Assembly (NCBI GenBank): GCA_018902385.1
Contig: JABSSW010000043.1
Coordinates: forward strand, 362,436-426,435
Length of the DNA stretch: 64,000 nucleotides
Direction of reading: 5' to 3'
Origin: Physcia stellaris
Taxonomy: Eukaryota; Ascomycota; Lecanoromycetes; Caliciales; Physciaceae
Shown here: positions 3,001-30,932 of the stretch, piece by piece
Position numbering within the stretch: position 1 is the first letter of the stretch
Layout: every line of letters starts with the position of its first letter
Translations under genes and position numbers: made by a program
The notes under the pieces: generated by a model
Seen by the model: only the letters and a program-made list of their open reading frames with translations
What the model was told of the DNA's origin: nothing
Database searches by the model: none

Positions 3001-3847
3001 ATGATTTATTTTGATTTAATTTAATAAAAAATTGCAAATAATAAAATTTATAAAAATATATTTCGAAAATCGCGATTTTTCAAAAACGAAAAAAATTGCA
3101 TCGTTGATTTTTGACATTTTTCAATTCATATAATTCGCAATGTATGAATTTCAATTCGAAATTTATTTTCATATTTTTTTTTCAATATTTGTACAAATTT
3201 ATCAAATTTCAAATATTTTATCGTGATTTTTCAAAAAAAATATTTGAAAAAATTATGTTTTTTGATCGACACATTTCGTTATAACAATTTTTTTTTTCGA
3301 AAAAAAAATGCAATTGTATCGAAAACAACATTGAATAAATAAAATTTTATAATAAAATTATTATTGTATAATTTTTCGAATAATATTAAATTTGTACGTT
3401 TTTTTTTGCAATTGTTGTTGATTTTTTTAATTCAATAAAACAAATATGTTTTTTTTATGCGAAATCAACGTTTTCGAATATTGTAAAAAAAAAAATTTTG
3501 ATTGTAATAAAAATCGATTACAATTTTTTTTTGATATTAACATGATTAAATTTGTCATTTAATATTTCATTTTTAATCAAATTTTTTTTCAAAAAAACGT
3601 ATATTATTTTGTACGTTTTTTCGTTTATTTTTAAATCAATACGAATACGATCATTTGTTCAATAATTTACGTTCAATTTTTTTCAATTTTTTTTTACGAA
3701 AAACATTGAAAATAATTATTGTGATCGATATTTTCGATATGTAATTCGCATTCGCACGAACGCGTTAAACAAACAATTAAACAAATAATTAATATATAAA
3801 TTTGCGAATGATGTCGAATTTGATCGTCGAATTGCACGTTGTGTAAT
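1..3847. other. Hypermutated AT-rich block without recognisable genes
   Basis: This stretch is extremely AT-rich and almost free of CC, CT, GG and AG dinucleotides, while CA, TG and CG are frequent. That is the signature of the RIP-like process seen across the window. Open frames here are short and Phe/Asn/Ile/Lys-rich, and none resembles a known family. An A-rich purine run at about 2630-2830 gives a long Phe-rich frame on the minus strand that is composition only. The block is probably transposon DNA mutated beyond recognition. Confidence 0.8.
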
Positions 3848-4530
3848 TGTTATAACACAAAATCAAATTAAATAATATAAATTTAAATCGAATATTTTGA
3901 CATGATTTTTGACAAAAATTCTGTCGTTATTTTATATTAAATGAATGATAATCAAACAATTGATTCGCAATTATTGTACATAAATTGACATTTTGTCGTT
4001 CATAATTTTTAAATTAATCGAAATTCACATATCATGTTTGATAATTGATAACATTATTCAAACGATAATTTGTACGTAAACAAATTGATATCATCAATTG
4101 TTTTTAACGTATCAATTTTCGAAATAACACAAAACGATTTTAAATATCAATTATTTATTATCGTTGTAATTTGATTTTATCGTCGAAAACTTTATTGTTT
4201 TTTCGATTTGACGTGTCGATCGAAATCAATTATCAACAACAAATATTCAATTGAAAATGAAAATTTCAATTAAGTTTTTTATTTTTTTAACAATTTTCAA
4301 CAAAAACGATTGATTTTTTTTTAATATTCAAAACATTTCGATTTTTCGTGAAAATTCGTATTGTCATCGTTCAATGACGACGCATTTAAATGTCAATTTA
4401 TTATCGAATTTTTGTTCGATTCGAACAATTCAATTTAACGATTTTATTTGTTTTTTCATCAACAAATTATTTGTTCAACAAGTTTTGAAAATTTCAATTC
4501 GTTTTTTTTTCTGTTTTGTTTATCATTTTT
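3848..4530 (+). repeat. Inverted LTR-like copy at the left end of Gypsy A
   Basis: It starts with TGTTATAACA and matches the reverse complement of 10765-11441 along its whole length, with differences mainly C/T and G/A. It lies in the opposite orientation to the adjoining pol remnant, which breaks off near 4510 at the repeat edge. It could be a solo LTR inserted in reverse, or the product of an inversion or recombination. Confidence 0.7.
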
Positions 4531-5804
4531 TTAAAGAAAACGCGAACGATTGTAAAAATCAATTTCGACAAATATTGATTCGAATTGTGCAATAAACACA
4601 ACGAAATAAATTCGTTATGTTGATGACAATTTCAATCGATACGTTAAACGTTCGATGCGTTCAAAAATTCGAAATAATTCGCAACGTTGTTGAAATAATT
4701 TCGAATTTGATTTGTCAAACAGTTTGTAATTTTTGTTGAATTGTAAATAAATTTTTTCATTTTGTTTTAATCGAATAAAAATATAACGTGAATCATAATA
4801 TATTTTGATTTTGACAATTGCAAAATTCGTGATATCGACAATTTTTTGTTGATATTTCATGCGTTGAATTGACAAATTCTGTACATTTGTTGTGTTAAAT
4901 GCGATTAAATTTGATATCGCGTTTTTGATTTTGAATTCGTATATGATTTTATTGAATGATAAATTTGTAACGATGTTAAACGTGTTGTTTAGTTGAATTT
5001 GAATTGCAAAAAAAAATTAAAATGTAATCGATGTTCGAAAATTCGATGACGAAATATTTGATAACAATTTCAACAATTTGATTGATTCGTTTTGACGAAT
5101 CGTTCGTTTGCGAATGATATGTCATTGAAATTAACAATTTCGTGTTTAATTTGATGAAAAACATTTGTCAAAAATTCGACATGAATTTTGAATCACGATC
5201 GAAAATTATAGTTTTAAACATTTTTCAATCGACGATTAATAGTTTGTTCAATAATGCGTTGATTCATTTTTTCGTTTCATAAATGTTTTTGTCGAAAATC
5301 AATGAAATTCGACGAAAATATTTACAAATTGCGAACATAACAATGTTCATTTCGTCAAATATAATTAAAATGAAATCAATGACAATGATATGAAACGAAC
5401 GCGAAACGAATGTGATAAACATGAATTTTTCGTACAATCGATAACGTTTAAATTTGTGTTAATTGACAAATAAAACAATGTTCGATATATTTTTTAATTT
5501 TTCGCGAAAATCGAAATATGTATAACGTATTGAAAATTTTGTCATAATATCGATGAATTTTTGAATGTTAATTCTGATTATAAATTAAACGAAATATTTT
5601 TCGTTTCATTGTGACAAATATACACGATCGACGCGAATCAATGTCAACGTGATATATAATGTCATTCGTATTTATCGCGAAATTGATTTTTGTTTTGAAC
5701 TTTTTTGATATAAATTTCGTATCGTCATTTTTTTGCTCATTGACGTTTCGATTTTTTACGTTGTTTTCGAACGACGACGAAATTTGAAAATTTCGAATCG
5801 ACAA
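4510..5804 (-). pseudogene. Gypsy A integrase and GPY/F remnant
   Basis: Three blocks read on the minus strand. The first, at 5804-5568, holds the segment leading into the integrase HHCC domain (YHVDIDSRR). The second, at 5164-4976, holds the catalytic-core region around YHSQTNDSSKRINQ, which corresponds to the conserved H-P-Q-T-D-G stretch of retroviral-type integrases. The third, at 4875-4510, is the post-integrase region with QRCELF and RLTYRLKLSST. Just after that motif a stop occupies a position where relatives have Trp, and recognisable coding sequence continues to about 4510. Multiple stops make it non-functional. Confidence 0.75.
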
Positions 5805-7100
5805 TTTTTGTTTTTTTTTTGCATTCGAATCGTCAACGATTTTAACATTTTAATCATGTTTCGTCATGTTTTTTTTTTTTGATATTCGTTTTTGATTTTT
5901 TTTTTAAATTTTTCGACATGACAATAAGAATGTTTTGAAAAGCGTAACAGTCGAAATTATTCGAAAAATCGATTATTTCGTCATGATATGTGTTCAAATC
6001 GAATTTATTTTTTGAATTTTTATCGATTTATTTATTTTCAAACGTTAATTTTGATAACGCATTCGAAATCACATGATTTTTTTTATTTATATTTCATTTT
6101 CAATTTAAATTGTGACAAATAAATTGAAACACGAACAAAACGAAAATTGAATTTATCGATGTTGTTCGAATTCATCGTGATTTGTTTAACGATAAAAATA
6201 TTGACGACATGATTCGTGAATACAACAATGATATTTTTGATTGTTTTTATCATATGTCGAATTTTTTTGACAATTCATATTAAATCACACATTTCGAATT
6301 CGATGAATCAATATTTGATTTCGATTTCGTTCAACATTCGATTTAAAAATAGAATAAATTCGATATCGTTACGTTTGAATTTGTTTGAATTATTGTTTGT
6401 TTTGAAATGATAAATTATCGCGTCGAATTCGCGTCGTTTAAACGCGTCGATGTCGATGTACAATTTTCGATCGAAATTGAAATGTATCAAAAATGAAATT
6501 TTGTTAAAAATTTTTGCAATAATCGATATGATTTTAATTTTTCAATTGAAAAATTGTTTATTACAATTTTTGCGAATAGATTTTGCGAATGATGTTTTTG
6601 TTGAAAAAATTGACGTAAAAATAAAATTTTGCGACGTTATAACGCGTTCGTTTTTGAATATAAAACGCGACGAATTTTCGTAATCATTTTGTTAAATTTA
6701 AATAAATTTTCAAATTTTTCAAAATATAAAAAAATTCAATTTAATTATTGTTTTCAATTTATCGATTGCGATAATGAAATCAAAAACGTCAATTTTTTGA
6801 TCAAAAAATGCGATCGTAAAATAGTCGAAAAATGATTTTTCGACGACAAATTAATTTCATAAATATTAATCGTTCGAATATCGAATGAAAATGAATCATA
6901 TGTTTTTCAAAAATATTGAAAAAAACGATAATGTCGTTTACGTAAACACGAACAAATTCGCGAAAATTTCGAAAAATAAAATCGATTCGTCGTTGTACGT
7001 ATGATGATGAATTTTTGAAATTCATCACGACGACGTTAAATTGTTTTTGTTTTTTATGTGAAACGACGATAAATTTATGTTTGTTTGCAAATTTTATCAA
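5805..7100 (-). pseudogene. Gypsy A reverse transcriptase and RNase H remnant
   Basis: Positions 7100-6801 encode an RT palm fragment with RRIDFIFRNFREFVRVYVND. The YxDD catalytic box reads YVND, so one catalytic Asp has become Asn, a G-to-A change on the coding strand. Positions 6490-6308 encode the start of RNase H, with YIDIDAFKRREFDAIIYH followed by FILFLNRML, a common arrangement in fungal Gypsy elements. The stretch between them is in pieces. No intact polymerase is possible. Confidence 0.75.
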
Positions 7101-7496
7101 TTATTGATGAAAAAAATTCGCAACGTCAAAAACGAATATGAATTTGCATTCGACGACAATTGAAATAATGTTTGATTGAAAAAACATAAAATAAAAATCG
7201 ATTAAAATGATTTTGTTTAATTCGCGTATATTCACGACGATTCGATTTTTGCGTTTTAAATCATTTGATTCAAATATTGTTTTTTATATTGCGAAAACAA
7301 AATAATCATGCGAAATGAATTGATTGATGTATTTTATGCGATTTTGAACGTGCAATTTATCGAAAATTTCATCAACGAGTTTTCGATTTGCAAAATCGAA
7401 AAAATAAATTTTCGTTGTTTCAATTTTCGCGTCGAATTTGAATTCAATTGATATTCATTTTTCAAACGAAATTCGTACAATAAATTCGTTATCATT

Positions 7497-8501
7497 TTAC
7501 AATTTTGAATAATTTTCGATTACATTTGCAAATTTAATTCGTGCGTTAATATCATCGTAAATCGTGATATTTGCAAACAAAATTTTTTCAAAATTAATGT
7601 TTGAATTTGAAACAAAATTGTTAAAATTTTCGCTCGAATTAATTGAAAAATTGATCGCAAAATTGAAATTTGTATCGACGAAATTAATCGCGATCGCATC
7701 GTGCAAATTTTTATAATTAATCGCGATAATCGCGTCAACGATCAAAATCGAAACATCAAATTTCAATGTTTGTTTGAATCAATTTTTAAAAACAAATTTA
7801 TGAACATTAACAATTAAATGAACGTATTTCGAATTAATTAAATAACATTTTTTTTTTCGTATTTTTGTACGAATTTCAAACGCGTATTTTTGAAAATGTA
7901 AACATTTTCAAAATTGACGTTGTTAATTTGAATCATTTTTGTATAAACATCGATAATATGAAAAAATACGTTTTCATTTAAATTTAATCGTTCAATTCGC
8001 GAAAACGTGAACATAAAATCGCGTTCAATAAATAAATTATTTTTTTCACGTAATTTGAAAAAAATCGTAAAAATTGATTTAATTGAAATTTTAATAATTT
8101 CGTTGACACGAATCACGCGTTTGATCGACGATTCAACATTAATGACATTTAATTGAATTTTAATGTTTTTGCAATTTTCAATGATAATCATTTGTTTGTT
8201 TACATTTATATTCATTCGTTTTGAATTCAATATATCATTGTCAAAAAAAATTTTGTTTTAATTTTTTCATTATGTAAATTTGTCGAGTGAACGTGACAAT
8301 CGCATTTTCGTCATTAATCGAGATTTCGAAAATTCGAAAAATTAATGATATATGATTCGTCGTGATTATGACGACATTTTCGATATCGCGAATTTTGAAA
8401 AATTTCATGATTTGTCGCGCATGAATTCGATAATCAAATATTTTTTGCATCAGAAATTTGCGATCGATTAATGACGTATCGCATTCGATATCGACGCACA
8501 T
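7497..8501 (-). pseudogene. Gypsy A protease and linker remnant
   Basis: Positions 8501-8241 encode a retropepsin-like fragment whose active-site region reads VDIECDTSLIDRKFL. The D-T/S-G triad has lost its Gly, as expected when GG becomes GA/AA. Positions 8230-7838 and 7766-7497 hold the linker between protease and RT that is typical of this fungal Gypsy lineage (KLREKNNLFIERDFMF). The relative order fits a minus-strand element. Confidence 0.65.
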
Positions 8502-8744
8502 ATCAATAAAAAATTGTTTTATGTTTGTTTTTATCGTGACGTAACGTTACGAACGAAATTCGAAATTGAATCGTGTATTTGTTTTAACATTTGATTGTAT
8601 GATAAATGTTTGATAATTATGAGCATTTTTCGTCGACGATGTGTCAAATTTAATCGAAATTGTTTGACACGAACGCAAATGTCGATGAAATTTGTTATTA
8701 AAATAAAATTTCGATTGACAACGTTTGCATGAATAGATTTTTGT

Positions 8745-10129
8745 TTATTTGATTGAAATATTCACAAAATACTCGAATGATTCATGAATTACATAATTTT
8801 CATTAAATTTTTGAATTTCGAAATGTTTTTCGTCATGATATTTATCATTTATTATAAATATTTTTGACGCGTTTTCAATATTCATGTTGTAATCATTTTG
8901 ATAATTTTTTTCATCGAGTTTGAATAATTGTTTTTGCTTTTTTTTTCGCAAAATACGTTCGTCGATATAATGTTTCATTTTGATTTGACGTTTTATTTTG
9001 ATTGAAATAAATATCTTGTTTAAACGAAAACGAAAATGAATTTGAAAAATCAACAAAATATTGATTAAAACGTAAAAATTGCGAATATTGAAATCGCGAA
9101 TCGAACGTGTTTCGATTTTTTTGAATTTCGTTTTGTTGCGTTTGTTGAAATCGATATTGTTGATTTTCGTATGAACGTTTTTGCATATTTTGTGTCGATT
9201 GTTGTCGATTTGAATAGTTTGACTGATACGAACGCTGTTGAAAAATGTAAACGTTATTTTGTTTTTCAAATTGATACGATATCGAATGTTGAATTTGACG
9301 AAATTGCGAAAAAAATTCATTGAAATTTTCGTAATTTACATTACGTTTATTGATGAAAAAAAAAATATTATACGAATCGAATGATGTTGACAATGTTGAT
9401 AATTGAAAACGATAAATAAATTGAAAACGACGTTCGTTTTCGTGTTGAAAATAAAAACGATATCGATTTTCGATGTTTCATTATATTTTTTTTTATCATC
9501 AAATTGTTGAAAAAATTCATTCATAATAATTTTTTCTGTCGATTTAATTAAATTTCGTCGAAATTTTAATTTCAATTCATTGTAAATTAAATAAAATTGT
9601 GAATAAATTGATATCATAATCGATTTAACATTTTTGATTATTATTTCGACGAAATCGAATGATTTTTTATGTTTGCGAACATTTTTTATAATGTATTTTT
9701 TTTCGTGATCATCGTCAACGTCGTGAACGACGATTTTTTATAACGTTTTAACAACAAACGTTTTCATTTTTTTACGTTTTTTTTTAATTTGATCAAATTT
9801 TTTTGATCGTCATTGACGATTTCAATATATTATCGTAATGCATGATCACGCATACAATTATAAAAATTTGTTCGAATCACATCAACATTTTTGAATAATG
9901 TCATATTTTTAATTTTTTCAATATAAAAATGAATATTTCGAAAATATGTATTTTTGCTCGAATGTTCGATCGAATTGTCGATAATAACGTTTTTTTTTTT
10001 CGTATCACGAATCGAAAAATTTTGTTTTTTGAACATTTTATTTGACGTCATCGTCATTGTCAAAAAATTCGATTGAATTTGATGATTCGACAAAATTTTG
10101 AAATTTTGTTTGAACATCGTTTCGAACAT
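8745..10129 (-). pseudogene. Gypsy A gag remnant
   Basis: Overlapping minus-strand frames (10129-9830, 9617-9336, 9393-8911, 9320-8745) sit where gag should be, between the 5' LTR and the protease. The segment at about 9393-8911 is Gln/Asn/Tyr/Arg-rich, like the disordered region found in many fungal gag proteins. I see no intact zinc knuckle. Gln codons are abundant and intact, which fits a mutator that spares CpA. Confidence 0.55.
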
Positions 10130-10764
10130 TTGTAATCAATGTTTGAAAAATTTGTCATTGTTGTTGCGTGAATTTCGTGTTTTGTCAATTGTTATTTTCA
10201 TTCGTCATGTTTGTATTAAATGCAAAAATAAATTCGATATTTTTTGTGTTTCGAAAAATAATATTCAACGAAATTATGATGTTGTTTCGTCGTTGAAAAA
10301 ACGACGTCGACGAAATGATTTGAAATTTACGACGTAAATTTTTCGAAAAATGAACGTAAAAAATATCAAAAAAAATATTTACAATCGTCGATTTTAAATC
10401 AAAAATGAATGACGTAATTCGATCATTAATTCAATCGAAAAATGATTGATTGTTTCGATACGTTTCGATGACGATCACGAAAATTTTAAAATTTTTGCGA
10501 AAACGAATTTTGTCGACGATTCATTTTGCTGAATAAACAATGTTTGTTGAAATTGAATGATTAATGACAAATAACGATGTTAATTTAAAACAATTAATTA
10601 CGATATTGTTTACAATAGCTTTTGTTGATGTATTGACAAAATAAATTCGATTAATTGTATCGATGTAATCGAATAATTCAAACGCAATGCGAATGATTTG
10701 TGATGTAAAAACAATCAAAATGATTTAAATGAAAATGATGTGTCGTATTGAAATTTGAAATAAA

Positions 10765-11441
10765 ATGATAATAAACAAAACAAAAAAAGAAAAACAAATT
10801 GAAATTTTCAAAATTTGTTGAACAAATTATTTGTTGATGAAAAAACAAATAAAATCGTTGATTTGAATTGTTCGAATCAAACAAAAACACAATGATAAAT
10901 TGACATTCAAATGTGTCGTCATTGAACGATGACAATGCGAATTTTCACGAAAAATCGAAATGTTTTGAATATTTGAAAAAAAAATCAATCGTTTTTGCTG
11001 AAAATTGTAAAAAAAATGAGAAATTTGATTGAAATTTTTATTTTCAATTGAATGTTTGTTGTTGATGATTGATTTCGATCAACACGTCAAATCGAAAAAA
11101 CAATAAAATTTTCGACAATGACAACGACAACGATGATAAATAGTTGACATTTAAAATCGTGTGTTATTTCGAGAATTGATACGTCAAAAACAATTGATGA
11201 TGTCGATTTGTTTACGTACAAATCATCGTTTGAATGATGTTATCAATTGTTATGCGTAAAATGTGAATTGATTTATTTTGAAATTATGAACGACGAAATG
11301 TCAATTTATGTACAGTAATTGCGAGTCAATTGTTTAATCATCATTCATTTAGTATGAAACGATGACAAAATTCTTGTCAAATGTTTTGCAAGAATATTCG
11401 ATCTAGTTTCAAATCATTCAATCTGATTTTATGTCATAACA
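10765..11441 (-). repeat. Probable 5' LTR of Gypsy A
   Basis: On the minus strand it begins TGTTATGACA at 11441, a normal LTR start, and it lies upstream of gag in the coding orientation. It is the reverse complement of 3848-4530. It keeps more CT/AG dinucleotides than the left copy, so it is less mutated. Confidence 0.65.
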
Positions 11442-11678
11442 ACGATGCAAAAATCATTGAAAAAATGAAAATGACGAAACGAATAATATTTGATTGATAA
11501 AAAGCGAACTGTTCGAACTCAAAACTTGTTAAAATAGAAATAATTCATTGATTATATCGATGATGATGCTAAGTGTACAAAATTTGAAATTGAGATTTTC
11601 ATCCGGCTTTCTGCAGCTCTAACTCTAGATGAATTAACTGCAACAGATATTTCATGATCTGATAATAAGAAAAGAGAA

Positions 11679-11890
11679 TAATTAGCACAGATGTAAATCG
11701 TACGAAATCGAGATTCAATGAGATCAATTATCAGAATCAATGAAGCAGATGTAAGATGACTTCAATTATGACTAAACAGAAAAATGTTACAAATGATTAT
11801 GTAAAAAGTCAAATGTCAAGCATTTAAAACTAATCACGTGCAATCTGTCAATTGACTTTTCAATCAATTTTTTGTTATTTCTTTTCAACA
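11679..11890 (-). repeat. 3' LTR of Gypsy B (mutated copy)
   Basis: Direct repeat of 19446-19657. All differences are transitions towards A or T: CC to TC or TT, GG to GA or AA, CT to TT, AG to AA. All CA and TG dinucleotides are retained. The copies diverge immediately after CAACA. Confidence 0.9.
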
Positions 11891-12240
11891 ACTTTCTTAC
11901 ACAACAGATCGTTGCTTTCAGCGACAATCTACTAATCTTTTTTTGAGCGACAGCGTCGATATTCATACGTCATCGCTATCTTGTCATTGAATTTCAGACA
12001 GATTAGTGAAATGTGTGATCGTTCAGCAATTTTCGAAACATCAAGATCATTGAAGAAATTTACATCAAATAATAAACAAAAATTCAATTTGATCAGCAGA
12101 TTTCGCATACGAAATATCGCTTCGCAAATTCGAAGTGTCGAAATCGTATGCTGATTCGAAAATCTCGTTTTTGAACGATTTGAAATCTTGCAATATATCG
12201 ATGACGTAACTTCGATTTGTATAACAATTAAATGAATTTT

Positions 12241-13041
12241 TTATCGATGCTTGATCGAAATCGAATCATACTGAATAAATTGCTCAAGTGATTTTTTGAC
12301 TTTTCGCTTTTGCTTCGCTTTTTTCATCGCCTTTTTTCTCGTTTTTCTCAAGTTTTTCATGATTGATAAAACCTTCTCGTTGACCGAGCGCAAGTATTTT
12401 TCACGAGCAAAAAAAGATCGTAAATGATCATCGTGAAACTGATTCGAAATTTTCTTATCATCGAGTTTCAAGAAATGATAACTGAATTCGTGTTCGCTTG
12501 TTGAATCAACAATAACAAACGACTCACGTCATCGAAATACGTTCTTGTCAAAAATGAGATTGATGTCACGAAAAAACACGTATTGATCGAGCACGAATAG
12601 TTTGAACTTGATTTCACGATCGTAACGTTTTTTCATGCGTTGTTTGATTTTCGTCATGCGTTTTATCACATTTTTATGAACTTTTTCGCGTTTAGTCATA
12701 TGATTTCATATCAGCGATAACATCTCGTCAGAACTGAGAAGCATTATCTTTTCGAACAATTGTAAAAATTGTACAAATCGAACGACGACGAAATTGAAAA
12801 ATTCGATATCATGCAAAATCTGATTGAAAATGTATTCAAAATGCTTTATGTGACGATCGTTACAGACAGAAATTGCTCGTCGAAAAATATCAAGAAAGTT
12901 CTCGTTGAATTTCTTCATCTTGTTCATAGCATGTCTGAATATTTTATTGTTCCGTTCAATCATATCGACGAATTTGTGAAACTGATTTGAAACAAGTATA
13001 CAAATAATGTCACGATCATCAAGCATATCTTTCATTTTCAT
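12241..13041 (-). pseudogene. Gypsy B integrase remnant
   Basis: Positions 13041-12706 encode an integrase-core fragment with FVDMIERNNKIFRHAMNK and a downstream arginine-rich helix, matching the region after the catalytic DDE aspartates where host-like helices sit. Positions 12471-12241 encode the C-terminal tail, which is strongly basic (runs of Lys/Arg) and may bind DNA or chromatin. Stops occur between the blocks. Confidence 0.65.
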
Positions 13042-14069
13042 CGATTTGAATGTCGAGTTTGCGTCTCAATACATCGCTGCAAACATAAAATGCTCACTAT
13101 TCTGATGATAATCAAAAGTCTGTTTCACGTCAAGAGCGAAAATATCGAATGTTGAATACGCAAATAGTGTTTCAGCGAAATAATCGATCATATTCAAAAT
13201 ATTTTTGTATTCGTGCTCAAAAAAATCAAATCAATCGATGAAATCGATGTCGAACAAATCGTAAAATTGATACGTTTAAACTGAATGTAAAAAAATTTGA
13301 CGTGCAATCACGATTCACTGAACACATTGCAGACAATTCAGTATGTATGATTTCACATCTGAAATCATGAAAAATCAATATACTCGATTCTTGATGCGAT
13401 TAAGAACGATGTTTGACGAGAAATGCTCGGTTTCGTCATAAACTTTTTGCAACAACGATGCAATTTCTGCTTTCGTGATACAGATACATCATTTTTCAGC
13501 GTAAATATGCAACAATCGATCTGTTGATTCGTCTCATCGATAATTGTTGATTTTACGTTTGAATGAAATCATCGTTGTTCTGTTCAGATTTTTCGATGAT
13601 TTTTCTTGTGCGTAATATGCATAGATATTCGAGTATCAGATTTTTTGAATGTAATTCGATTTTCTCTCACAAGTTATATTTTCTGCTTGAAGATTTCGAA
13701 TCATCGCATGTAATTTCGAGTCGTATTTTGCATTATATGACGTAGAATCGGGCAAAAAACATTGCTCTTTTACACAATAAAACGTTCAGTTCATTCGAGC
13801 AATGATTTGTTCATCGTATTTTTCGATTTTTCGCTTTTCGTTTTTTGCAGACAATTTTTTCAACGTATCGCGATATTCGTTCTTGTCGATTTTTCAGAAT
13901 CATTCGATATCGTTTTTATGCTTGATGATTTCACGATGCAAATTCTTAATCAATTGATCGAATTCGCAGTTCTTCTTGTTGAAAATGACGCGTGAAAAAT
14001 CGTCGATCATTTGATTTTTTTGTTTTCAATGTATTTGATTTGAATATTGTGACTTCGAAGTTTGTTGAT

Positions 14070-14991
14070 TTAGCGAGCATAAATATTTTCGTGTTTTTGC
14101 GCATTCATGAATTTCACGAGCGATTTGTGATCGATGTGAATTGTGTTTCGATTTTTCGAGTCAAAAATGTGCTCATACTTTTTAATAAAATGAACAATCG
14201 TGAACAACTTTCGTTTGTAAGTATCGTAATTACGCTGAGCTGAGTTGAACGAGACGCAATCATACAAAATTGACTTGTTTTCATCGTTTTGCAATTGACT
14301 GATGTAAATGTCATCATCGTATGCTGAAACGTCAGTATAAATCTCACAGAGCAACGTGAAATCATGATCAAACATGTTCATTACGTTGAAACATATTCTC
14401 TTCAGAATCTGAAAGAACAAGTTTTCGAACTCGAATCATCGTCATTCGATCTTGCTGTCGCAAATACGTTGTAATGATTTTGCGATTTCATCGAAATTGA
14501 ACATTCAACGTTTAATAGATTGTATCGTTTCTAAAAACTTCGTATTGCAGTGACATTTTGAAAGATTGATCAATTGCGTATTTTATTCATGAATTTCTGC
14601 TTGATGTTCAAAATCTCATCGATTCGATATAATTGATCGAATGTCTTGAGTTCAGTGACTTCGATTCTCAGCTTGAATAAAGAAATTCGCATTTGAAATC
14701 ACAATAATCGAGAAAAAAAATGATTTTTCAAAAACTGTATTGTTTTTCGAAAATACGATGTGTTCCGAAGATGTCATCAATGTAAAAAAATATGTCAAAA
14801 AACGATGTTCTTCTCAATGCATGTAATAGTGACGATTCTGCATTCGAACTTGATATAAAATCGAGTACTATGTTGATTAACTCGATAAAAATAAATGACG
14901 AAGTTCTCGTTCTTTGAAACATGCGAATAGATTGCAATTGATCGATATCTGATACATGAAAAATCAGATAATGACGATTTTCAGAATGCAT
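14070..14991 (-). pseudogene. Gypsy B reverse transcriptase and RNase H remnant
   Basis: Positions 14991-14728 encode an RT palm fragment with FFYIDDIFG, the YxDD box with both Asp retained. Positions 14420-14070 encode a Gypsy-type RNase H with YTDVSAY, then NSAQRNYDTYKRKLFTIVHF and HIDHKSLVKFMN. These correspond to the family's catalytic Asp/Glu region and the DHK-L motif. The fragments lie in separate frames with stops between them. The element is recognisable but dead. Confidence 0.8.
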
Positions 14992-16004
14992 CAGAACGTT
15001 TCAATAATCATATTTCATATCAGTCGAGAAATAACAACGATGATCTGAACGTCTCAAAAAATCGTGAATACGTTGTGCGAATTTCATCATATTCTCGTCG
15101 AGTTTCTCGTATACGAAATGATAATTGAACGTTAATTTTGATTCTATCTGCTTTGCTTTGAATATTAGAACAGATGCAGCATCTCATTGAGACGTGCGAT
15201 CATTGACGATGACGATACGTTCGTACATGTCGATTTCAAAATTCTTCTGTATGATTGTCTGATATCATCACTTCTTTTCAGACGTGAATCGATGTTGTTT
15301 TGCATTGTAAAATTTCAGATCAAAACGAAAGCAAACTCGATGTACAATAAGATCAATAATCGATATATTTTTCAATTTTTTCGCATTCACATCACGATAT
15401 GTTCAGATAAATTGCAAAATTTTCAATCGCATATTTGCATTCGATATGACGTCATTCAACGTGATTTTTTCACTCTTGATTCACTTCTCTAGAAAATCTG
15501 AGAACATTGTATCGTCAATAATGCGACGAATAATGCGACGAATAATAGAAAATTCAAAATCTGATTTCTCGTTTATGAAAACGTTCCTTGAATAAATCAT
15601 CGAAAATTTTGATTTCAATTTATTCTGCTGTTCGTTTCAATGAAATATGCAGACGTATTCGAACGAACAACGACATTCTGATTCATCTGTCTGATTGACA
15701 AAAACTTTGTAAATGCGAATTTTCTTCTGACGATTTCAATGAGATATACAAGCGAATTTGATTTCACATCTGCACTCGAATTCGATATCGAAATCATTGA
15801 ACGATTGTAATGTTGCGTTATTGACTTTGAATGTTGTATTTTTCGTTTCGTGTCAACGAGATGACGATTCACATGTATCGACGTTCTTATTCGAATAATT
15901 TACGCAGGAATTCAGATGTTGATATATTATCTTTTTGAATCGACAAAAATTCTTTTTGCTCTTCATTTTCATCGCTGAATTTTCTTTAAGATCGTCAACA
16001 AGAT

Positions 16005-16661
16005 CTATTGAAAACTCGCGTCTCTTGAATCAGAATCTGAAATAAGAAACTCGTTAAATTTTTCATTCGAATTCTCAAATTTCTTCTCGAACTCGAAGTC
16101 ACTGAAAACGATTTTTTTGACGATGATACGTTCGAGCGTCTTCTGTACGTTGATTTTCTTTCGTTCAAATGAAATATTCGAATTATGAACGTGTTTCACT
16201 TTTGTCAAATCAAAAATCTTGATTTTCGAATTGATATTTTTGGTCATTTCACTCTGAGCGAAATTTTCTATTTGAATTTTCTTGTTCTTGATGTCAATTT
16301 GTGCGTGCATCGACTGAAATCAAGATAAATCGAGTAACAGTTTCGTATTGTTGTCATTGTGATTTGAGTTGACGAAAATTCATATTTGACGTTTAATGCT
16401 CTCAATCTCGATGTTCAGAATAATTCAGAATTTCAGTTCATGACGATTTTCATTGATCATCATCATGCGCATTTCGTTAGAATCGAGCAATTTCGATGAA
16501 TAAACGTTCAGTTTCATGTTCGACGCGAGTTTCGCATTGATGATAATAAGATTCGAGTTTTGATTTGCTTTGATCGATTCAAACGATAAATCGATGCGAA
16601 AAAACTTCGAATTCTTGTAAAATATGCAGGAAATTTCATATGCATTATTGATGATTTTCAC
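16005..16661 (-). pseudogene. Gypsy B protease-region remnant
   Basis: Positions 16661-16425 contain ANQNSNLIIINAKLASNMKL, which resembles the retropepsin active-site context (D-x-G-S-D/N-L, then I and L-A) with Gly and Asp changed to Asn. Positions 16310-16005 are acidic and Lys-rich, as in the linker before the protease. The position between gag and RT supports the call. Confidence 0.55.
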
Positions 16662-16685
16662 GATTTCATAGTATTTCTTGATTAT

Positions 16686-19100
16686 TCATTGCACGCGTTT
16701 ATTCTTGTTCGAGCGAACGGATGTGAAATTGATTTTGAACATTGACGTCATTGTTTGATTGATCTTTTCAACTTTCTTTTTGCGAAATTTCCGGAATGCA
16801 TTAATAAGACGTTTCGTTTCATCGCGAAGATGAAAAAATAACTGAAATAAATGTAATGTCGGCAAAATAATCGTTTGATTCAACAACAACTTTTCAATCG
16901 AAATTTTTTGTCGATCAATCATATTCGCAATAGATTTCAGAGTCTTCTTAACGTTTTTCTGTTTCACTTTTTTTTTCTTCGGTCGCTTCGAAATTGTTGC
17001 AAAAAATTTCGCGAAAAATTTGATTGAATTCTCATTCGACTTTTTATCATTACTTTTTTTGACTTTTTTCTTGATTGCGTTTATCGCAAAATGTTGAATT
17101 CGAACGATTGAATCGATGATATTTGACTGAAAAAAGACAAAATGAATTGCAAGAAAAAAAAAAGTGTTTTTTGCATCGATATTCGCAGTGTAATTCGTTG
17201 AAATGTCAATTGTGAAAAAGCGAAACGCAGATTCGCAACAGTTGACAAAGATATCGTCGTCTTCATATATGTAATCGATGAAAGAAAATGATGCGGCGAA
17301 ATTTGCAAAAAGATGATTTTCGAATATTTCGATATAATATGTGATTGATTTCGCAAAAGATTGAAATACATTCGACTGCGAAAATGATATTGTTGATTCG
17401 TCTGATCTGTATAGTCTTGATTGATATGATGTAAAGACAAATGATATATCTGAAAATAATTGTTCTGATTGTATAAAAATCGAATTGTAATAATCTTTCT
17501 CACGTGATCTGTATGCAATGATTTGTTGTAAACGACGTTTTGCGATCGGAGTAAATTTCTGATGCTCGTTACATGTGCACTTCTTGAAGATATGATCACA
17601 ATCGTCGCATGTATGACAACAAATATCGTGTTCTATTCTGTTGTACGTCACATTTTCGTTGATAAAGCGATTGGAATGAACTTGAGCGTTGAATTTTCGA
17701 TCTGTTTTCTCACGTTGTTTTTTTCATCTGATCTCGTCACGAAGAGATGATATGACAGTTTGTGATTGACTTCGAAAATTCTGGAAAAAATATTCTGAGT
17801 ATTGTTGCAATTCTGAAGTATTTGAAGTGAATGATTTTGTGTATTCGATTGAGTTGATCTTTTGTATACGTTCGTTACTTGAAATTCTGATTGATTGTCG
17901 TTGAGAACGTCGATTGTTGTTGTATATCACATCGATAAGAAATTCTTTCTCGATCAACACACTTTGCACGATCCTGATTGTTTTCGCTTTGATGTTGAAG
18001 TCGATTGAATTCAACTGTTCAAAATAGAATTCGAGAATTTTAGATCGCTCGTTCTTGATGATTTTCTGGATTTGAAGTTCGTGACGTTTTTCAGATTGCA
18101 TGACGTTGAACATCTTTTCTGTTAAAACGCAAATCTTTGTCAAGCTTTTCATCTTTGCGATTATGCTCTCGATATATTTAGCATACATTCGCTGTCGTAA
18201 TTTCAGATTTCGTATATCGTTGATGAATTGCTTGATGAGAAAAATCAAAAACATGCGTTCATTCTCTGTCAACGTGTTGTTCACGATGTAATCTTGATCG
18301 TCGTTCTCGACAAAAATTTTGTTGAGTCGTTCGTAATACTTTCGAAAAATCTCATTTGTTCGCTGAATTGTATTCAGAATTCGATCGATGCGTTCGTCGT
18401 CAATGAAGATGAATTTTTTCTTGACAGAATATTTATCGCAAATAATTTTCTTGAACTTTTTCTTGTCATTCTCAGTGACATTCTTTTTTTTTTGTTAATC
18501 AACGTTTGAGTTTTCTTATCGTTGTCAATTCAGTTTTTGAATGTCTCAACGAACAAAGTTCAAAGTTGCAATATGTATTTTCCAGACGTCAGATTCTCAT
18601 GTTTGAATTCGTGATTGAGATTCACGAGTCACTGAAGTTTTTGCATGAAATCGTCAAATTTTCTAAGCATCTTGCGTGAGAACTGACGAGTAAAATGAAT
18701 GAGCGTTGTTGATTGAAATTTTGAAAAAAAAAAAATATCGATTGCAGATTGCGTAAATGTCTTCGAAATGAAATGAAAATAATCTTCACTGACTGTACTT
18801 CTCGTAGGTGTAATTCAGAACTTGCAATCGTTGCAAAAAATCTTGAAATCGTAATATATGTGTGATCGAGAAACTTCGCAGTTCGGGCAGTTCGCTGTGA
18901 TCTTCAATATGATATTCTTGAGTTTCTTGATCATTAACGTAAAGAGAAAGTGTTTTGATCGTTGAGCAATACGTAATGTTCGTGCTGATGTCGTTTATGA
19001 ATGTGCGCTTTGATTGAATCGTTTCAGAGATTATTTTGCTCAATAATAACAATTTTTCGTAATCGTTTTTTTTCACTATTCGTAATGAAGATTTCAACAA
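16686..19100 (-). pseudogene. Gypsy B gag remnant with CCHC zinc knuckle
   Basis: Three minus-strand frames form the gag region: 19100-18786 (N-terminal helical part), 18284-17724 (capsid-like, charged, coiled) and 17651-16686. The last holds CHTCDDCDHIFKKC near its start, an exact C-x2-C-x4-H-x4-C zinc knuckle in which the usual Gly positions are Asp, as GG-to-GA mutation would produce. The C-terminal part is Ser/Lys-rich. Breaks between frames make it non-functional. It lies directly inside the right LTR, as expected for gag of a minus-strand element. Confidence 0.75.
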
Positions 19101-19445
19101 TCGATTCGAAGATATGTCTGATGTTTTGCTTGCAAACGATGCAAAATGTCAAATCAAAAAAACAATTCGGAAATATACAGATTTAAGTTCGAAAAATTCA
19201 ACAACGAAGAATGCAACGTGTTGATTTGAATTTCGTCGTCAATTCAAATCGTATGCAATTGAAATTTCGAGATTTGATAATAGTGATATAGAAAACTTCG
19301 TCGTTCGAAAAGATAAACAATCGATAAAATGATTGTCGTATAGTAAAAAAGCTCGATTTTGTTGCCTCTAAAAGATAAACAGTGAGCGATCAACGGCGAT
19401 TTTTATTGTCAATCGTCTTCCGAGAATGAGCATCAGAAAAAAAGA

Positions 19446-19657
19446 TAATTAGCACAGATGTAAATCGTACGAAATCGAGACCCAATGAGGTCAATTATCA
19501 GGATCAATGGAGCAGATGTAAGGTGGCTTCAATTATGACTAAACAGAAGAGTGCTACAGATGGTTATGTAGAAGGCCGAATGCCAAGCATTTAAGGCTAG
19601 TCACGTGCAACCTGCCAATTGGCCCTCCAACCAATTTCCTGTTACTCCCCTCCAACA
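19446..19657 (-). repeat. 5' LTR of Gypsy B (nearly unmutated copy)
   Basis: This copy retains CC, GG, CT and AG dinucleotides and marks where hypermutation stops on the left side of the gene island. The element interior immediately to its left is depleted of CC and GG. It serves as the reference for reading the mutation spectrum of the left copy. Confidence 0.9.
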
Positions 19658-20461: not shown

Positions 20462-23333
20462 TTATGGACATCTCTGTATCCCATTATACCCAAAGCTATC
20501 TCCAATATTCGAATCCTGCACATTGAAGTAGCTCGTATCATCATTGCCAGCAGCATATATTGTGCAAACCCATTGGTCCTCGTTCATGAGGTAGTAGAGG
20601 TTGAAGCTAAAAAACATAGAATTGTCGGCAATTCCGGCGCATTCTTGGATAAGCTCGCAGACGGGGGCGTCATCACTGTCGCTACCTTAGTAGAGTTCAC
20701 GAACCAAAGAGCAAGAACGATAGCTGTTCGGCAAGTAAAGAGAGAGGAGGGGAACGGAACATGGGCAGGACATACAGCGTAACGGTAAACGGGTTGTACC
20801 CCAGATCTACAGGATTCCCAGGATTGTTATCATTTTCCCTGACACCAGAACCTGTGAAGTATTCGGTGTAAGTGGTTGTGCGGACGCCGCAAGAGCACCA
20901 TTCGTCGTCGTCGCAAAACGTGACGCTAGTGCATGTTGCTGGGTCATTGCCTGTGGCTGTCGGAGCGTTGCAGGTGGGACAGCCCGGTGTCGCGGATGCG
21001 GATGCGGATGCTGTGGGCATCGGCATCGTGGGTGTGGCGATCGGCACAGTGACTGTTATGGTCGCTAGTGACGATATTCTGTCAACGCCTTACTTGATTC
21101 CTAAATAGTTCTCGATGGAGGGGGCCGTGGGTGTGTGATTGTTGCGCTTCGCGAATACACAGTTATGGGGCAATAGGACTATGGATACTCACTTGGTGCA
21201 GCAGTAATAGAGCTGACGACAACGTTAGTGGTCGTCAGTCCAGAAGCAGTGACAGTAACTGTTGGGACGGCGATGGATTTAGTAGCTGTCTCTGTGACTG
21301 TCTGTTCGAGATGTTAGTATTGATCTTAATTGTTACACAATGCTGACGTCTCTGGAGACGGGAACAATCTTCGAGAACTTCATCATCCGGACTTCGAACT
21401 AGATTTTGGAATGTTGACAATGAGGCTGCCGGAAGACAAGTACTTACGATAGTCTTGGCAGGTGCTAAAGTAGTCGAAACTGTGGATGCAGTATTTGCAA
21501 CGGTCACGGTTTTTGTATTGGTAGTCTACACGCGGGAAAGTAAGCCAGTGCAACAGGGAAATCTCGAGTCTGGTGGTAGACGAACCGGGCTAGCTGTTTG
21601 CGTGCTCACAATACTCGTCTTCGTGACAGTAGAGGTCGAGGTTGGACAAGTGGATGTTACGGCTGTTTTCTAGGCGAATCTAAGTCAGCATTTCTTATCT
21701 ACAACCATGGACTCTGCAGAAAACCCTGCGCTGCAAGCAGAGTAAAGTCGTCAAAGACAAAGCGGCAGGATTGGGGAACACTCACGGTGACCGAAGTGAC
21801 AGTCTTGGTCGTGCGAACAGAGACTTCATCCTGAAGAAGGAAGCCACAGTCAGCAATCTGGATCCAAAGGACAGCTCAGTCGTGAAAACCCGTTATATCA
21901 AGTTACAGCTATCTGTCAAATGCAACAACCAAAGAGGCTGATCTAGGAAGGGGAGCTTGATTCTTGATTGGGACGTACCGCGCAATAAACCGCTTGTGGG
22001 TAACTTTCCCGACGACCGATGGCATGAGCATGAGCAAAAATTGGGGCAGTCTGGTCTCGCTTCTTGATACTAGCATCAAGCGAGATTGTCGCTGTGACTG
22101 TAATGCCTGGCAGAGTGGTCACAGAAACGGAGGTAACGGTGATTGGCGGTGGTGTGATAGTGACTTGAGCCGTGGTAAGCGATGGGGTGATAGTGCTTTG
22201 AAGAGGTTAGCTATCAACAACAACTCATATGTATGTTCGCCTAAATGTCACGATAAACGCACTCGCCCCTGGCAAAAGAGTACCGGTCTTTCACCAAGTT
22301 AAGGCGTTTTCGTGCTTGGGATATCTAATTGATATGTGGTATTAATGGGGCTTTGGAAGTGGTGGTTTCCCCAAGTGAGGTTTCCTGGTTTCATATTGAT
22401 ATTGAAACCGCCACTCAAATTTTGTTCAGAGCGAGTGAAGTTCAATGTAGGGATGCGCAGCAAAGGATAAATACCTTGTTACAGTTACTGTGCTTGTTGG
22501 CGTCGAGGTTGTAAGGATGATTTTAGGAGATCCAGTTGTGACAGTCACTGTTTGAGTCTGAGGCGCTGGAGTGACGCTTGACGTTATCGAAGCCTAGGAG
22601 AAACAACTGGATTAGTGTATGTTTTTCCATTCGAGAGAAAAGAGCATTGGATATGCTTGCTGGACTCAAAAATACTCTGCTATATCCTGATAGCAACGGA
22701 AGAGGAAGCTTTTGCACTTCTACGTGTCTGGATCGACGAGATGTGGGCCCGAACAGTGATTCGACTTCGCATCGAGATTGACGAGCTGTCGACCAGCAAC
22801 TCTGTGTCGTGAGACATTCGAAACACGAGGAGAAAATGGGCAAGCATGGCTCTAGCTTGACCTTATCAAGGCCCATGCCTGGAGAGGGGCAGTCTTTCAG
22901 GAGTGCAGGGCATGGGGAGCTACAGACACCGCTGGTGGGTTGAAATCTATGTCGAGACACTCACCGTCTTTGTAGTTGTTGTACAAGATGGAGTGTTGCA
23001 TGTTACAGTCGTAGTCGTAGCAGTAGCTATGGTGGTTGTTATTGTGCCTATGAAGAGCCAAGGATTAGCAGAAAGGTCCAGTCTAAACCAGAATGACAGC
23101 CGCAAAGCTTTAAGCATCTTGGATTTTCAAGAGACGACTAGTTTTAGATTCGACGTACTCGTTTTAGATGTCGTATATGTCGTAGTCGGCACAGACTTTG
23201 GCTTAGTTACACATGTAGAAGTTACGCAACCATAGTGAACCGTCGTCGTGCTAGGATTGGCAGGGTCGTCGCAAAGGACAAAAGGAACAAAAGCTATCAA
23301 GGCCGAGAGCGAATGAAATGTGAAGAAACGCAT
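20462..23333 (-). CDS. Secreted Thr/Val-rich wall or adhesin-like protein, ten exons
   Basis: My model joins complement 23333-23159, 23047-22965, 22593-22475, 22195-21979, 21830-21786, 21669-21610, 21525-21448, 21301-21193, 21064-20776 and 20681-20462. All introns are GT-AG, and the product is 464 residues. It starts with a signal peptide (MRFFTFHSLSALIAFVPFVLC). The middle is built of Thr/Ser/Val blocks such as TTTTVTCNTPSCTTTTKT, and several exons are a whole number of codons, so each encodes one block. The C-terminal part is Cys-rich (CPTCNAP, DDDEWCSCG, then VCELIQECA and EDQWVCTIYA), ending in IQRCP; this looks like a folded extracellular module. It is probably a wall-associated or secreted protein; ligand and function are unknown. 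There is no GPI-like tail. Exon edges are inferred from phase and splice sites. Confidence 0.72.
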
Positions 23334-25378
23334 GTTGAATGGAACCGCAATTCAGCCCGGACAGAAATGCGAAGAAGGACAGATGGCTATATCAGGACTT
23401 CTGGGTGGGAGAGACATATATATTTCTATCTTTTCCCAAGTTCAAAACTAGTGTTGCGCTCGACCGGGAATTTCTCCCAACGATATAGGAAAATTGTCCA
23501 CCAGGGTCTGGCTGGGCCTCTGAGGTCTGTGATGGTGGTCCGAAGTAGCCATGAGCACTGCTGATCTGGCAAATATACTTTTATTTCATTGAGGTAGTCG
23601 TGACCGGCTTTCGAGTACCAAATTTATGTTCAATTCATTGCTAATGGCGGAGAACTACGAGTTCTCAAGTGGGCAACGCTTGTGCTAGGCTGTCAATAAC
23701 ACCTTCACTGGTCTCCCAATAGAAGATTTTAGGCTGGGTACATCCTGTTCGCCCCTTAGCATGGCCACTCTACATTCCTGTACTTGTACAAGTCAGACAG
23801 TATCGATCGGCTTAAAACACCTTATTCACTGGAATGTAAGTTTGATACTGTACTCCATTGACGCTGAGGCAGGATTAAAGTGGAGAACCATATATCCATG
23901 GACCACCTTCAGTAGTGTGCGCTTGCCTACCATGGGTCGAGTGCTGCGCATTGGTCCGATGGGTCGCCTGACTTAGGTAGGTACCGTAGTGCGATAGTGC
24001 GCGGTTTTTCAGGATGACCATCTTTCTCGCGTTTGTTGTCTAACGTCTTACATCAGTTATGAGCCCTTTCTGCTTGTGGAAGGATCAATTCAACAACGTT
24101 CTGTGGACAACGTGTTGAGCACAATGGTCTCGACTTGGTGTTCACTTTGGAACTCTGTTAATTGACGATGCATTGGACCTACGAGGGGCGAGGCAATAAT
24201 GGTTGAGGACGCAATCCATGATGAAGGGATTATGCTTTCCCGCGTTCGCAAGGACATCCATGGTACAACCTAGCCCGACGCTTCCTCCTTACTAGAAGGC
24301 CCAGGGATAACTAACATGATCTTTGAGTCTCTGCCGACCTTTAATTAAAGTGTAAAATTTTCACTCTTGTTTGGGCAGTCAAAGCGTGGCGCTCACGACT
24401 ACTTCGGTTAGACAAATGCTGAGATGCGGGGAAACCCCGAGCAAGACTAACCGTCTCGTCTCTCACTTCGCTATTGTCCGGGAGCCTTCGTGTTATTGGA
24501 CAGTATTGCGGTCTGGGTTCCTGATGGATGCCAATTAGTGGGACCGTTGGAGGATCAACGTTTAGGGGTTGTACTCTAGTGCTTGGGAATAGTACCCGAT
24601 TGCGGAGATTTGAATGCCGATGTTGCACAAAATGACAGGGTTGAGCGATCATTCCCTGGAAATTATACTCAGTTCCGAAGAGTAGTATCGTCTCTAGATA
24701 GTTCCTGGCTACTCGTATACCTTAAGTTCGACCACGAGGGACGAAGCTATGCACCTCTTGTGAGCCTCTTGTGCGACTAGTCGGCTCCTATGTGCCTCAA
24801 TGACACAAATACAATTTTGTGTCTAGGTCGTTCCTGAATCCTGATTCCTCTGCTCCTATCCGTCGTCGCAAAGTAAGAATAATTCAAAGGTACAACAAGG
24901 AGAAATCCATAGAAACAGGTACTACGTAGGCCGCAGCTGCAGAGTTTGGACAGAAACTCCAGTACATTATCGTGACAGCACGCTGATGGAAAGGACCCTT
25001 GAGTATTCTCCCGATCTGTGACTGGGGAAGTCAATTATGAGAGCATTATATGTCCAAATACATGTCGAAAACTTGTCTCAGCTCAAGATCCTGTGGCCAT
25101 CAGTGTAATTTTACAGATTCTTGCGTGAGATACTCAAGCATCGATACCGATCTAAATGTATGTCGGTATCCTGTATTCATCAAAGTTTCGTCCAATCCGT
25201 TCAATGTTGAGAATCTTGACCGTGATGATTGATGTCTTTGAAGAGGTGAAATGATTCAACCAGCCGAGGCACGGAAGGACGGCGGAGAGATTCCGCTATC
25301 CGTAGATTCTATCTTTAGCTACATGTAAGCTGCGAGGCTGTCCTGAGCACCTATCTAGCATCTTCGTTCCTTTACGCC
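23334..25378. other. Intergenic region, about 2 kb
   Basis: This lies between two divergently transcribed genes, so it should hold both promoters. TATA-like stretches occur near 23390-23425 for the minus-strand gene. Small open frames (for example 24341-24652, minus) show no recognisable family. Confidence 0.6.
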
Positions 25379-27149
25379 ATGGAAAGGCTACCTGAGGAGC
25401 TCCTTCTACACATTGTATCATGTCTGCAGCTCCAGTCCGTAATGTTGGGCTATAGCTGATTGATCGGTAGTCTTGGACGGCTATGACCTCTTACCACTTC
25501 ATCTTGTATCGAAGCATTTCTACAAAACTGCCCGTGATAACGAGCTTTGGAGAGCCCTAGTTGCCAAAAGCAGCTTCTCTACTGCTGCTGTAAGGCGCAG
25601 AGACTTCCTCTCCGGCGCACCAATTCCCGTACCAGATCCAGTGGCACTTCAGCTGAGAGCTGCCGCACGTTCAGCTGCAGCTAATGCTGACAATCATGAT
25701 CATGGATCAGTGGAGGGACATGAAAAGATAATACATAGTCACAATCATTCGGCGAGAGGGAGCTTAGCCCCAGATGGAGATGTGAACTTCTACCACGAAT
25801 ATATTGCTAGACACGCCCCTATCTCCCTTAGCTGGTTGCAGAATCCAAGCGAACCTCGGAGCAAACATCATCATGAAATTCGAGGGCTAGCCTTCACCGG
25901 GAGAGCCGGTGAAATCATAGTCGCGCCCCTGGATAATGACAGCATTTGCCTGTGGGATCTTGGACGTGATGAGGATAGCCCGAGCGAGTCAACCGGCCGC
26001 GTTCTGGCTCGGAGCAAGCCTGGTATCCTCTCTGCTGATGGGCTGCAAAAATCTTCCCAGGATCTATGGAACGAGGGGCGGCCGTGGCAGGAGACTATCG
26101 TTGAAAGTGTCAGCGTCGACAAAATTCGTAATAGAGCCTATTTTGCGATTGGGAATGGTCTGAACGAAGTCGACCTCAATACTCTACAGCTCGTCTCTCA
26201 TTGGAAATTCCCTTCCTCTATCTGCGCTCTATCCGAGATATTTCATTCAGATCCTCTAACAGTTGCCACCGACTCTGGCTTACACCTCCATGACTATCGT
26301 TCTCCCCAGAAGATATATGCGAACGATCCGGCCAGTGAATGTCTCAGTTCTTCCCCATTGAGCAACCCAGCCAGCCCCAACGACTTCGATCGTCTTATTT
26401 CAGGCGACCGATGTTCCAGTCACGCCCCACTTATCCACTCCCCCCTCTCCATCGTCCACCTTCATTCAAGTCAGACAATCCATGTCGCTGGTCGCTTCCC
26501 CAGCATCCTGAGCTTTGACCGACGTACCTTCCCAAAAATCCACTCCACAATCCACTCAGGCGCCCGCCTCTCCAGTTTGACATCCAAATCATCTCTCGAG
26601 GCGGACACCCTGATAGCATGTGGGGAGTATAATGGCAAAGGCTCCCTCGAGCTCTACCAAACCCCTACATCCTCTCCCTACACTTCTCCAACATCAAGGT
26701 ACCAGAACCGGACCTCCGCTGCCCGCTCCAAACTTCTCTCCGTTGCCTCTCATGGCACTCGAATTGTCTTCTGCGATGGTGATGGGATGCTCAAATGGGT
26801 CGAGTCCGACGGCCACACCTTGGTCCGCCGCTGGAACATCAACTCCTTCTCTCAACGCGAAATGCCTCGCGGGCTCTTTGGCGGGCCATCAGAAGCTGGC
26901 GAAAGCGACGTGGCCCGGAAGATTGTGCCACTGAATGGGGGTAGCAAGAGCGAGTTGGCCATTTGGACAGGGGAGCGGATAGGGGTCGTGGGTTTTAGGA
27001 AGAGGGCTAGATTTGGGCCGTGGGATGAGGAGGTAGAGGCGGACGAGGATGTGAAAAAGGAAAAGGAAATGGAGGGGAGAATGAGGAGGGCGTTGGAAAG
27101 ACAAGCGGATGAGGTTCGATTTGTCAGAGGGCTGGGTTTGGGAATATGA
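25379..27149 (+). CDS. F-box protein with WD40-like propeller
   Basis: Exon 1 is 25379-25421 and exon 2 is 25471-27149. The 49-nt intron has donor GTCTGC and an acceptor preceded by a CTGAT branch-like site. The splice restores a textbook F-box at residues 4-45 (LPEELLLHIVSFLDGYDLL, then VSKHFYKTARDNELWRAL). The product is 573 residues. The rest looks like a beta-propeller: IRGLAFTGRAGE followed by ICLWDLG near residues 150-175, with further repeat-like strands. The C-terminus is a charged helix rich in Glu/Lys/Arg. By family knowledge it is a substrate receptor of an SCF ubiquitin ligase, with the F-box binding Skp1 and the propeller binding the target. The target is unknown. The donor is non-consensus, but no other donor keeps the frame. 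Confidence 0.8.
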
Positions 27150-27204
27150 GAAGGCTGTTGAGATGACGCTGTGCCTGGAAGCTAGATGAGTCCAGGTTCA
27201 AGGT

Positions 27205-27282
27205 GATCATGGTCATACCTGGTCTTGGTTCATGGTACTGTAAGATCGTGGTCATTCCTGGTCTTGGTTCATGGTCCTGTCG
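27205..27282. repeat. Two-copy 39-bp tandem repeat
   Basis: Units 27205-27243 and 27244-27282 each contain CCTGGTCTTGGTTCATGG and differ at a few positions. They lie just downstream of the F-box stop codon, in the presumed 3' UTR or intergenic DNA. Confidence 0.85.
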
Positions 27283-27379
27283 GTACTGTTGTGCAGAATA
27301 GAGATCGGTTTGGCATCATAAATTCGACCCTACGTCTCTACCCCAAACACCAAACGACCTAAGGCTTAGGAGTAAGTTC

Positions 27380-29301: not shown

Positions 29302-29533
29302 AGTAAGGTGCTTTTCCTCAACGACTTTCGCTCTGGTCATATCAAACAAACCCTAATCTCGAGTCCGGGTACAAGTAGCCTCTGTGCCTTTACCCGGAGC
29401 GGGGGACTCGTGCCTCGGTTGAATTTACGAGGCATTCACAGAGAGAGCCAATGTCTACTCCATACCTGAAATTCAAAGATGGCCTCTCGAGAACTTCTAC
29501 ATCCCCGACTCGAGGATTTCATTGTGGGCGACC

Positions 29534-30675: not shown

Positions 30676-30932
30676 GAATGCAGGTAAATTCTGACAAGTG
30701 ACTCGAAAGGGAATTTTCACGGTTGCTCATCGTTCCAGACTAGCCCGGTACGAGTGACTGGGAGTCTCTCTTGACAGCACTTGGAAGAATCGATTGCTTG
30801 GATGTACATGTTTGTGGTAGCTCCAATGTTGTATGATTTCGATTCAAGATCGGAATTTGTGAGCTACATAGTCTGTATGCTGACATTCGACGCTGAAAAG
30901 AGCGGACAGGCTAAGATGCCCATTGAATCGCT

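Follow-up and report, generated by a model that had tools for sequence, protein, structure and literature searches.

Repeats of Physcia stellaris have lost cytosines preceding C or T while keeping CpA: a probable variant of repeat-induced point mutation

Loss of CpC and CpT in a pair of long terminal repeats

Repeats in the genome of Physcia stellaris (Caliciales, Lecanoromycetes) have been rewritten: nearly every cytosine preceding C or T has been removed from them, while cytosines preceding A or G are mostly left. A sequence-only reading of 64,000 bp of contig C43 (positions 362436-426435; hereafter the window) had proposed such a pattern, akin to repeat-induced point mutation (RIP), for the two long terminal repeats (LTRs) of a retroelement. 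The observation is confirmed here and extends far beyond these two LTRs. The genome (43.97 Mb in 147 contigs) comes from an ascospore-derived axenic culture, was sequenced with Nanopore reads and polished with Illumina reads, and has a GC content of 43.3% (PMC7513301); the word RIP is absent from the main text of the paper describing it.

The element in question lies on the minus strand, with its interior at 11891..19426 and its LTRs at 11660..11890 (left) and 19427..19657 (right). A piece of the pol gene encoding RNase H (14070..14420, minus strand) matches PF17917 (E 8.4e-15) and PF17919 (E 2.7e-11). The minus-strand PF17917 match indicates a Ty3/Gypsy-type element coded right to left, so that the right copy is its 5' LTR and the left copy its 3' LTR. 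An ungapped comparison of the two LTRs over 231 bp revealed 40 differences, 35 of them transitions in the left copy. These divide almost evenly into 18 C>T and 17 G>A, showing that both strands were mutated. With the right LTR as reference, 21 of 24 CpC, 13 of 29 CpT and 1 of 10 CpG sites had changed, as against none of the 36 CpA sites (Fisher's exact test: CpC versus CpA, p = 2.5e-13; CpT versus CpA, p = 4e-6; CpC versus CpT, p = 0.0016), and no CpC remains in the left LTR. The sequence-only reading had counted 34 changes with 12 at CpT; the recount gives 35 and 13, while its figures for CpC, CpG and CpA stand, as does its claim that the CpA sites of the left LTR are intact.

The right LTR has a normal CpC density and was taken as the reference state. 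Of 40 LTR matches listed across the genome, 30 were used, namely the right LTR itself and 29 copies compared with it; eight of the latter are flanked by DNA of normal composition, and the GC content is under 40% on one or both sides of the other 21. Although the eight normal-flank copies have diverged to 75-79% identity with the right LTR, T occupies just 5 of the 179 CpC positions scored against that LTR and 18 of the 218 CpT positions, which supports the polarity of the comparison and places the right LTR near the ancestral state. In the 21 copies with a mutated flank, by contrast, 282 of 427 CpC and 269 of 558 CpT sites were mutated, compared with 42 of 682 CpA and 6 of 205 CpG sites. Graded intermediates that have lost 9, 14, 16, 16 and 21 of the 24 CpC sites link the two LTR states. 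CpA was unchanged at all 178 sites of the five closest copies, and the split between strands across five copies was 51 versus 76. The base preceding the cytosine has a small effect (mutated sites in 17 copies: ACC 85/97, GCC 98/126, TCC 55/74, CCC 30/44), and the base two positions after it has little influence.

Element interiors and a second family

The interior of the window element represents an intermediate stage, with observed-to-expected ratios of 0.08 for CpC, 0.62 for CpT, 1.23 for CpA and 2.22 for CpG. From 26 interior matches listed, the seven longest were used for stage counts and six for single-copy changes. Across a 2-kb interior region of the six full-length copies, CpC falls from 13 to 0 and CpT from 159 to 14, while CpA (248-280) and CpG (210-230) hold; the seventh, shorter copy agrees with them. 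Single-copy T at CpA was found in 38 alignment columns, 26 of which are due to one heavily mutated copy, from which we conclude that CpA comes under attack late and at a low rate. The sparing of CpA is thus strong, not absolute, and the order of targets is CpC > CpT >> CpA > CpG.

A second element family provided a reference with its own polarity, namely an unmutated 3.4-kb LTR element on contig C5. Nine loci of this family were tried; one lacked a 250-bp match to the reference, and the remaining eight comprise five mutated copies, two of which are 97% alike, and three that are little or not mutated. In the five mutated copies, changes were found at 359 of 496 CpC, 362 of 621 CpT, 66 of 575 CpA and 32 of 486 CpG sites. 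Among the other three, the copy on C37 displays no excess of changes at CpC and CpT (CpC 19/208, CpT 13/220, CpA 19/219, CpG 16/191), and those on C26 (33/214, 20/232, 17/226 and 14/194, in the same order) and C32 (45/185, 24/198, 12/194 and 5/172) display a weak one. The C5 element and these three relatives share 79-88% identity over 0.9-2.2 kb.

Extent of the pattern in the genome

Two AT-rich blocks of the window, at 1..11602 (mostly 20-25% GC) and 52843..64000, together 22.6 kb, contain not a single CC or GG, where base shuffling predicts approximately 312 and 354 (about 666 in total). Relative to a gene-bearing control stretch with normal CpN densities (20500..52500, 49% GC), CpC on both strands drops from 119.6 to 0 per kb and CpT from 129.8 to 7.0 per kb, as opposed to 141.0 versus 118.1 per kb for CpA; CpG is as dense in the AT blocks (116.9 per kb) as in genic DNA (103.0 per kb), in line with the earlier argument that retention of CpG speaks against decay of methylated CpG. 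The trinucleotides TCA and TCG remain abundant in the blocks. Over 89 one-kb bins around 30 loci, as GC content declines from 0.53 to 0.21, CpC (142 at the upper end) reaches 0 and CpT shrinks from 165 to 5, with no matching drop in CpA (98-151) or CpG (64-142).

The same holds for 60 bins of 1 kb sampled across contigs C1-C40 (the three group means cover all but one bin, which has a GC content of 0.414). Ten of these bins have a GC content below 0.40, and all ten exhibit the pattern (CpC 0-8, CpT 1-50, CpA 104-142, CpG 92-140), none being depleted of CpA. The preference for CpC over CpT with sparing of CpA and CpG therefore recurs in the 21 LTR copies, the seven-copy interior, the five second-family copies, the AT blocks and the low-GC bins, and CpA is the main mutated context in none of the LTR, interior, second-family or bin sets. 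Thresholds of RIPper or RIPCAL were passed by none of the 60 AT bins of the window. CpA-based indices consequently score these blocks as unmutated, and similar systems elsewhere may have been missed.

A RIP-type process with altered specificity

The distribution of the mutations suggests that a RIP-type process very probably acts in P. stellaris. The mutated tract spans the element and ends within approximately 200 bp of the element ends (five right and three left edges), beyond which the DNA is normal; the left LTR of the window element adjoins another AT block. Two of the eight normal-flank LTRs bound the 3.4-kb C5 element, and the other six are isolated and unmutated. Their longest matches to other loci compared are 226-238 bp, a length at which repeats would be expected to escape.

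The candidate genes named in the sequence-only reading are present. The genome contains two genes for RID-family methyltransferases, RID-A on C5 and RID-B on C6 (790057-794028), and one for a DIM-2-like protein. The two RID proteins belong to different clades, both supported at 100/98, and retain the catalytic motifs. In a midpoint-rooted tree RID-B groups with methyltransferases of Aspergillus and Talaromyces, and its clade is also represented in Heterodermia.

We consider it reasonably probable that the process as a whole is a RIP-type one with changed specificity for the 3' neighbour, coupled to repeat pairing around the sexual cycle and catalysed by a RID-family enzyme. Such a process would introduce C:G to T:A mutations into repeats with the neighbour order given above. 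RIP proper takes place after fertilisation and before meiosis and requires RID. The trigger in P. stellaris, by analogy with Neurospora, would be the pairing of repeats around the sexual cycle, and the catalyst would be one of the two RID paralogues, with a target recognition that accepts a 3' pyrimidine. If the process is of RIP type, a RID-family enzyme is its likely agent.

Several observations weigh against this interpretation. While the six short isolated LTRs escape as expected, so does the 3.4-kb C5 element, in spite of its relatives with 79-88% identity; this unmutated element and the barely mutated relatives weigh against unconditional targeting of repeats, and the unmutated element makes a RIP-type process slightly less probable. 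Neurospora RIP has an identity requirement that would let diverged repeats escape, and the copies on C5, C26, C32 and C37 may be too diverged to pair. The 5' LTR is un- or partly mutated in all five copies where it was compared, which targeting of the whole repeat does not predict. Furthermore, the comparison of RID-A with its relatives (104 of 120 proteins aligned) uncovered no change in motifs I-VIII that would explain the specificity: its deviations lie at scattered positions, each common to some relatives. Finally, a 2026 review names CpT and not CpC as the preference of DIM-2. As a separate observation, four of four 3' LTRs, paired with their partners by contig and orientation, are heavily mutated, and three of them adjoin normal DNA.

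Alternative explanations

The catalyst could instead be DIM-2, which would methylate repeats at CpC and CpT, the resulting 5-methylcytosines being deaminated in the course of RIP or else gradually while the fungus grows vegetatively. A DIM-2-like gene is indeed encoded, and the preference of Neurospora DIM-2 methylation for CpT given in the same review speaks for this scheme; however, CpC was struck harder than CpT in both the 21 LTR copies and the second family, with CpA nearly spared. We regard this possibility as unlikely, although the present data do not separate DIM-2 from RID. A rather different scheme holds that CpG and CpA are protected by methylation and that a deaminase acting only on unmethylated cytosines removes the remainder. 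DNMT-type enzymes have a usual non-CpG preference that the order CpC > CpT >> CpA > CpG roughly mirrors. Putative deaminases are also available, as the genome holds three matches to the OTT_1508-like family (PF14441; on C38, C34 and C17) and eight to PF00383. Nevertheless, these are family matches only, and the AT blocks, with CpG as dense as in genic DNA, bear no sign of 5-methylcytosine decay at CpG, making the scheme improbable. Only slightly less doubtful is a distinct system altogether: cytosines at CpG and CpA would be shielded by methylation, a separate deaminase or a methyltransferase acting on bare cytosines would convert the rest, and the resident Ty3/Gypsy lineage would survive with proteins nearly free of glycine and proline.

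The remaining explanations fare far worse. Editing of retroelement cDNA by APOBEC-type enzymes and ultraviolet damage of the exposed thallus both yield C>T changes, and lichens are exposed to the sun; both agents act on a cytosine that follows a pyrimidine. In P. stellaris, on the contrary, the 5' base matters little, TCA and TCG persist in the AT blocks, both strands are affected in the LTR pair and in the five copies alike, and the DNA adjoining the element is normal, which leaves these explanations with a negligible probability. Just as implausible are an origin of the two LTR states as old subfamilies and a sequencing artefact behind the pattern. A diverged LTR subfamily does exist (the eight copies at 75-79% identity), but it carries the unmutated state, and the graded intermediates connect the mutated and unmutated LTRs, contrary to what unrelated subfamilies would show. 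As to an artefact, the assembly was polished with Illumina reads (PMC7513301), and poverty in glycine and proline is also found in homologues of the gag-like protein.

Comparison with known systems

Three established processes were considered and rejected. CpA-type RIP as in Neurospora, which raises TpA/ApT and lowers CpA+TpG, disagrees with the absence of AT bins passing the CpA thresholds and with the untouched CpA sites of the LTR pair; CpG-type RIP or decay of methylated CpG disagrees with the undiminished CpG of the AT blocks; and methylation induced premeiotically (MIP) in Ascobolus is a reversible methylation without mutation, whereas here the sequence itself is mutated. The process nonetheless resembles RIP of Neurospora crassa (RID, with DIM-2) in its C:G to T:A changes on both strands, its AT-rich repeat blocks and the presence of RID and DIM-2 homologues. 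It differs in that P. stellaris loses CpC first and nearly spares CpA, roughly inverting the order reported for N. crassa, CpA > CpT > CpG > CpC (PMC5496416). RIP in Trichoderma reesei, demonstrated experimentally, also has a shifted context, in which CpA and CpG precede CpT, with CpC after it, according to the same source; CpC is last there and first in P. stellaris.

Signatures at CpA, CpT and CpG are described in PMC4352252, the main text of which does not contain the term CpC. Its CpT-type cases, Botrytis, Sclerotinia and Magnaporthe, share with P. stellaris the targeting of CpT and the possession of RID-type genes, but CpA is targeted there as well. In Tuber (CpG-type) and Microbotryum (TpCpG), repeat-biased C>T changes likewise occur outside CpA alone, whereas CpG is the most spared context in P. 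stellaris. Among the Lecanoromycetes, Cladonia rangiformis possesses sharply delimited AT-rich repeat blocks and RID and DIM-2 homologues like those of P. stellaris, with a GC peak of ripped DNA near 16%, lower than in P. stellaris; the terms CpA, CpT and dinucleotide are absent from that study (PMC12542154). For Rhizoctonia, a table in PMC4014442 has CpC single-nucleotide polymorphisms spaced closer than the other three types; these are polymorphisms, and the authors call the process CpG-biased.

Section 9 of a survey covering 1,239 fungal genomes concludes that a preference for CpA is common to RIP-like defences (PMC12543289); P. stellaris, with CpC first, is a clear counter-example. In the literature searched, no report of CpC-first or CpA-sparing RIP was found, several papers that use the term CpC falling outside that search, and judged against this literature the process is a previously unreported RIP variant. 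As a natural variant in specificity, it might help in learning how RID-type enzymes choose their cytosines.

Consequences for encoded proteins

If changes are confined to cytosines followed by a pyrimidine and guanines preceded by a purine, the genetic code implies that the sole codon converted to a stop is TGG, which becomes TGA. Damage to proteins should therefore consist in loss of proline and glycine rather than in filling with TAA and TAG. The window element contains an open piece of 321 aa (16686..17651, minus strand) with no glycine and three prolines, which is considered gag-like from its position, without Pfam support. Seven matches to the gag region were listed, and the window copy was compared with two others. 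Of the five stops in the gag-like frame, four are TGA facing tryptophan in one open homologue (three of four for a second homologue), and the remaining one is the end that the frames have in common; the two further P. stellaris copies share these stops, and one has a single TAA in addition. Five gag-like homologues, which may belong to other species or to P. stellaris itself, have 0-1 proline and 0-1 glycine in 269-421 residues, with ordinary glutamine plus histidine content. Two of these homologues of the 16686-17651 piece, P0197 and P0198, are open retroelement proteins of 421 aa with no proline, 0-1 glycine and 3-4 tryptophans. Their composition hints at selection for tryptophan in a lineage that has lost its CpC sites and may survive adapted to the process.

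Other repeats of the window

The left AT-rich block includes long inverted repeats; two of approximately 680 bp, at 3847-4533 and 10761-11442, flank a 7.6-kb stretch devoid of any CC or GG. The right block harbours a second LTR-like pair of direct repeats (54432-54742 and 60909-61201) with a 244-bp core that is 96% alike. Lastly, a tandem repeat of 83 bp, the units of which are 72% alike, is located at 42286-42455 in the stretch of normal GC content.

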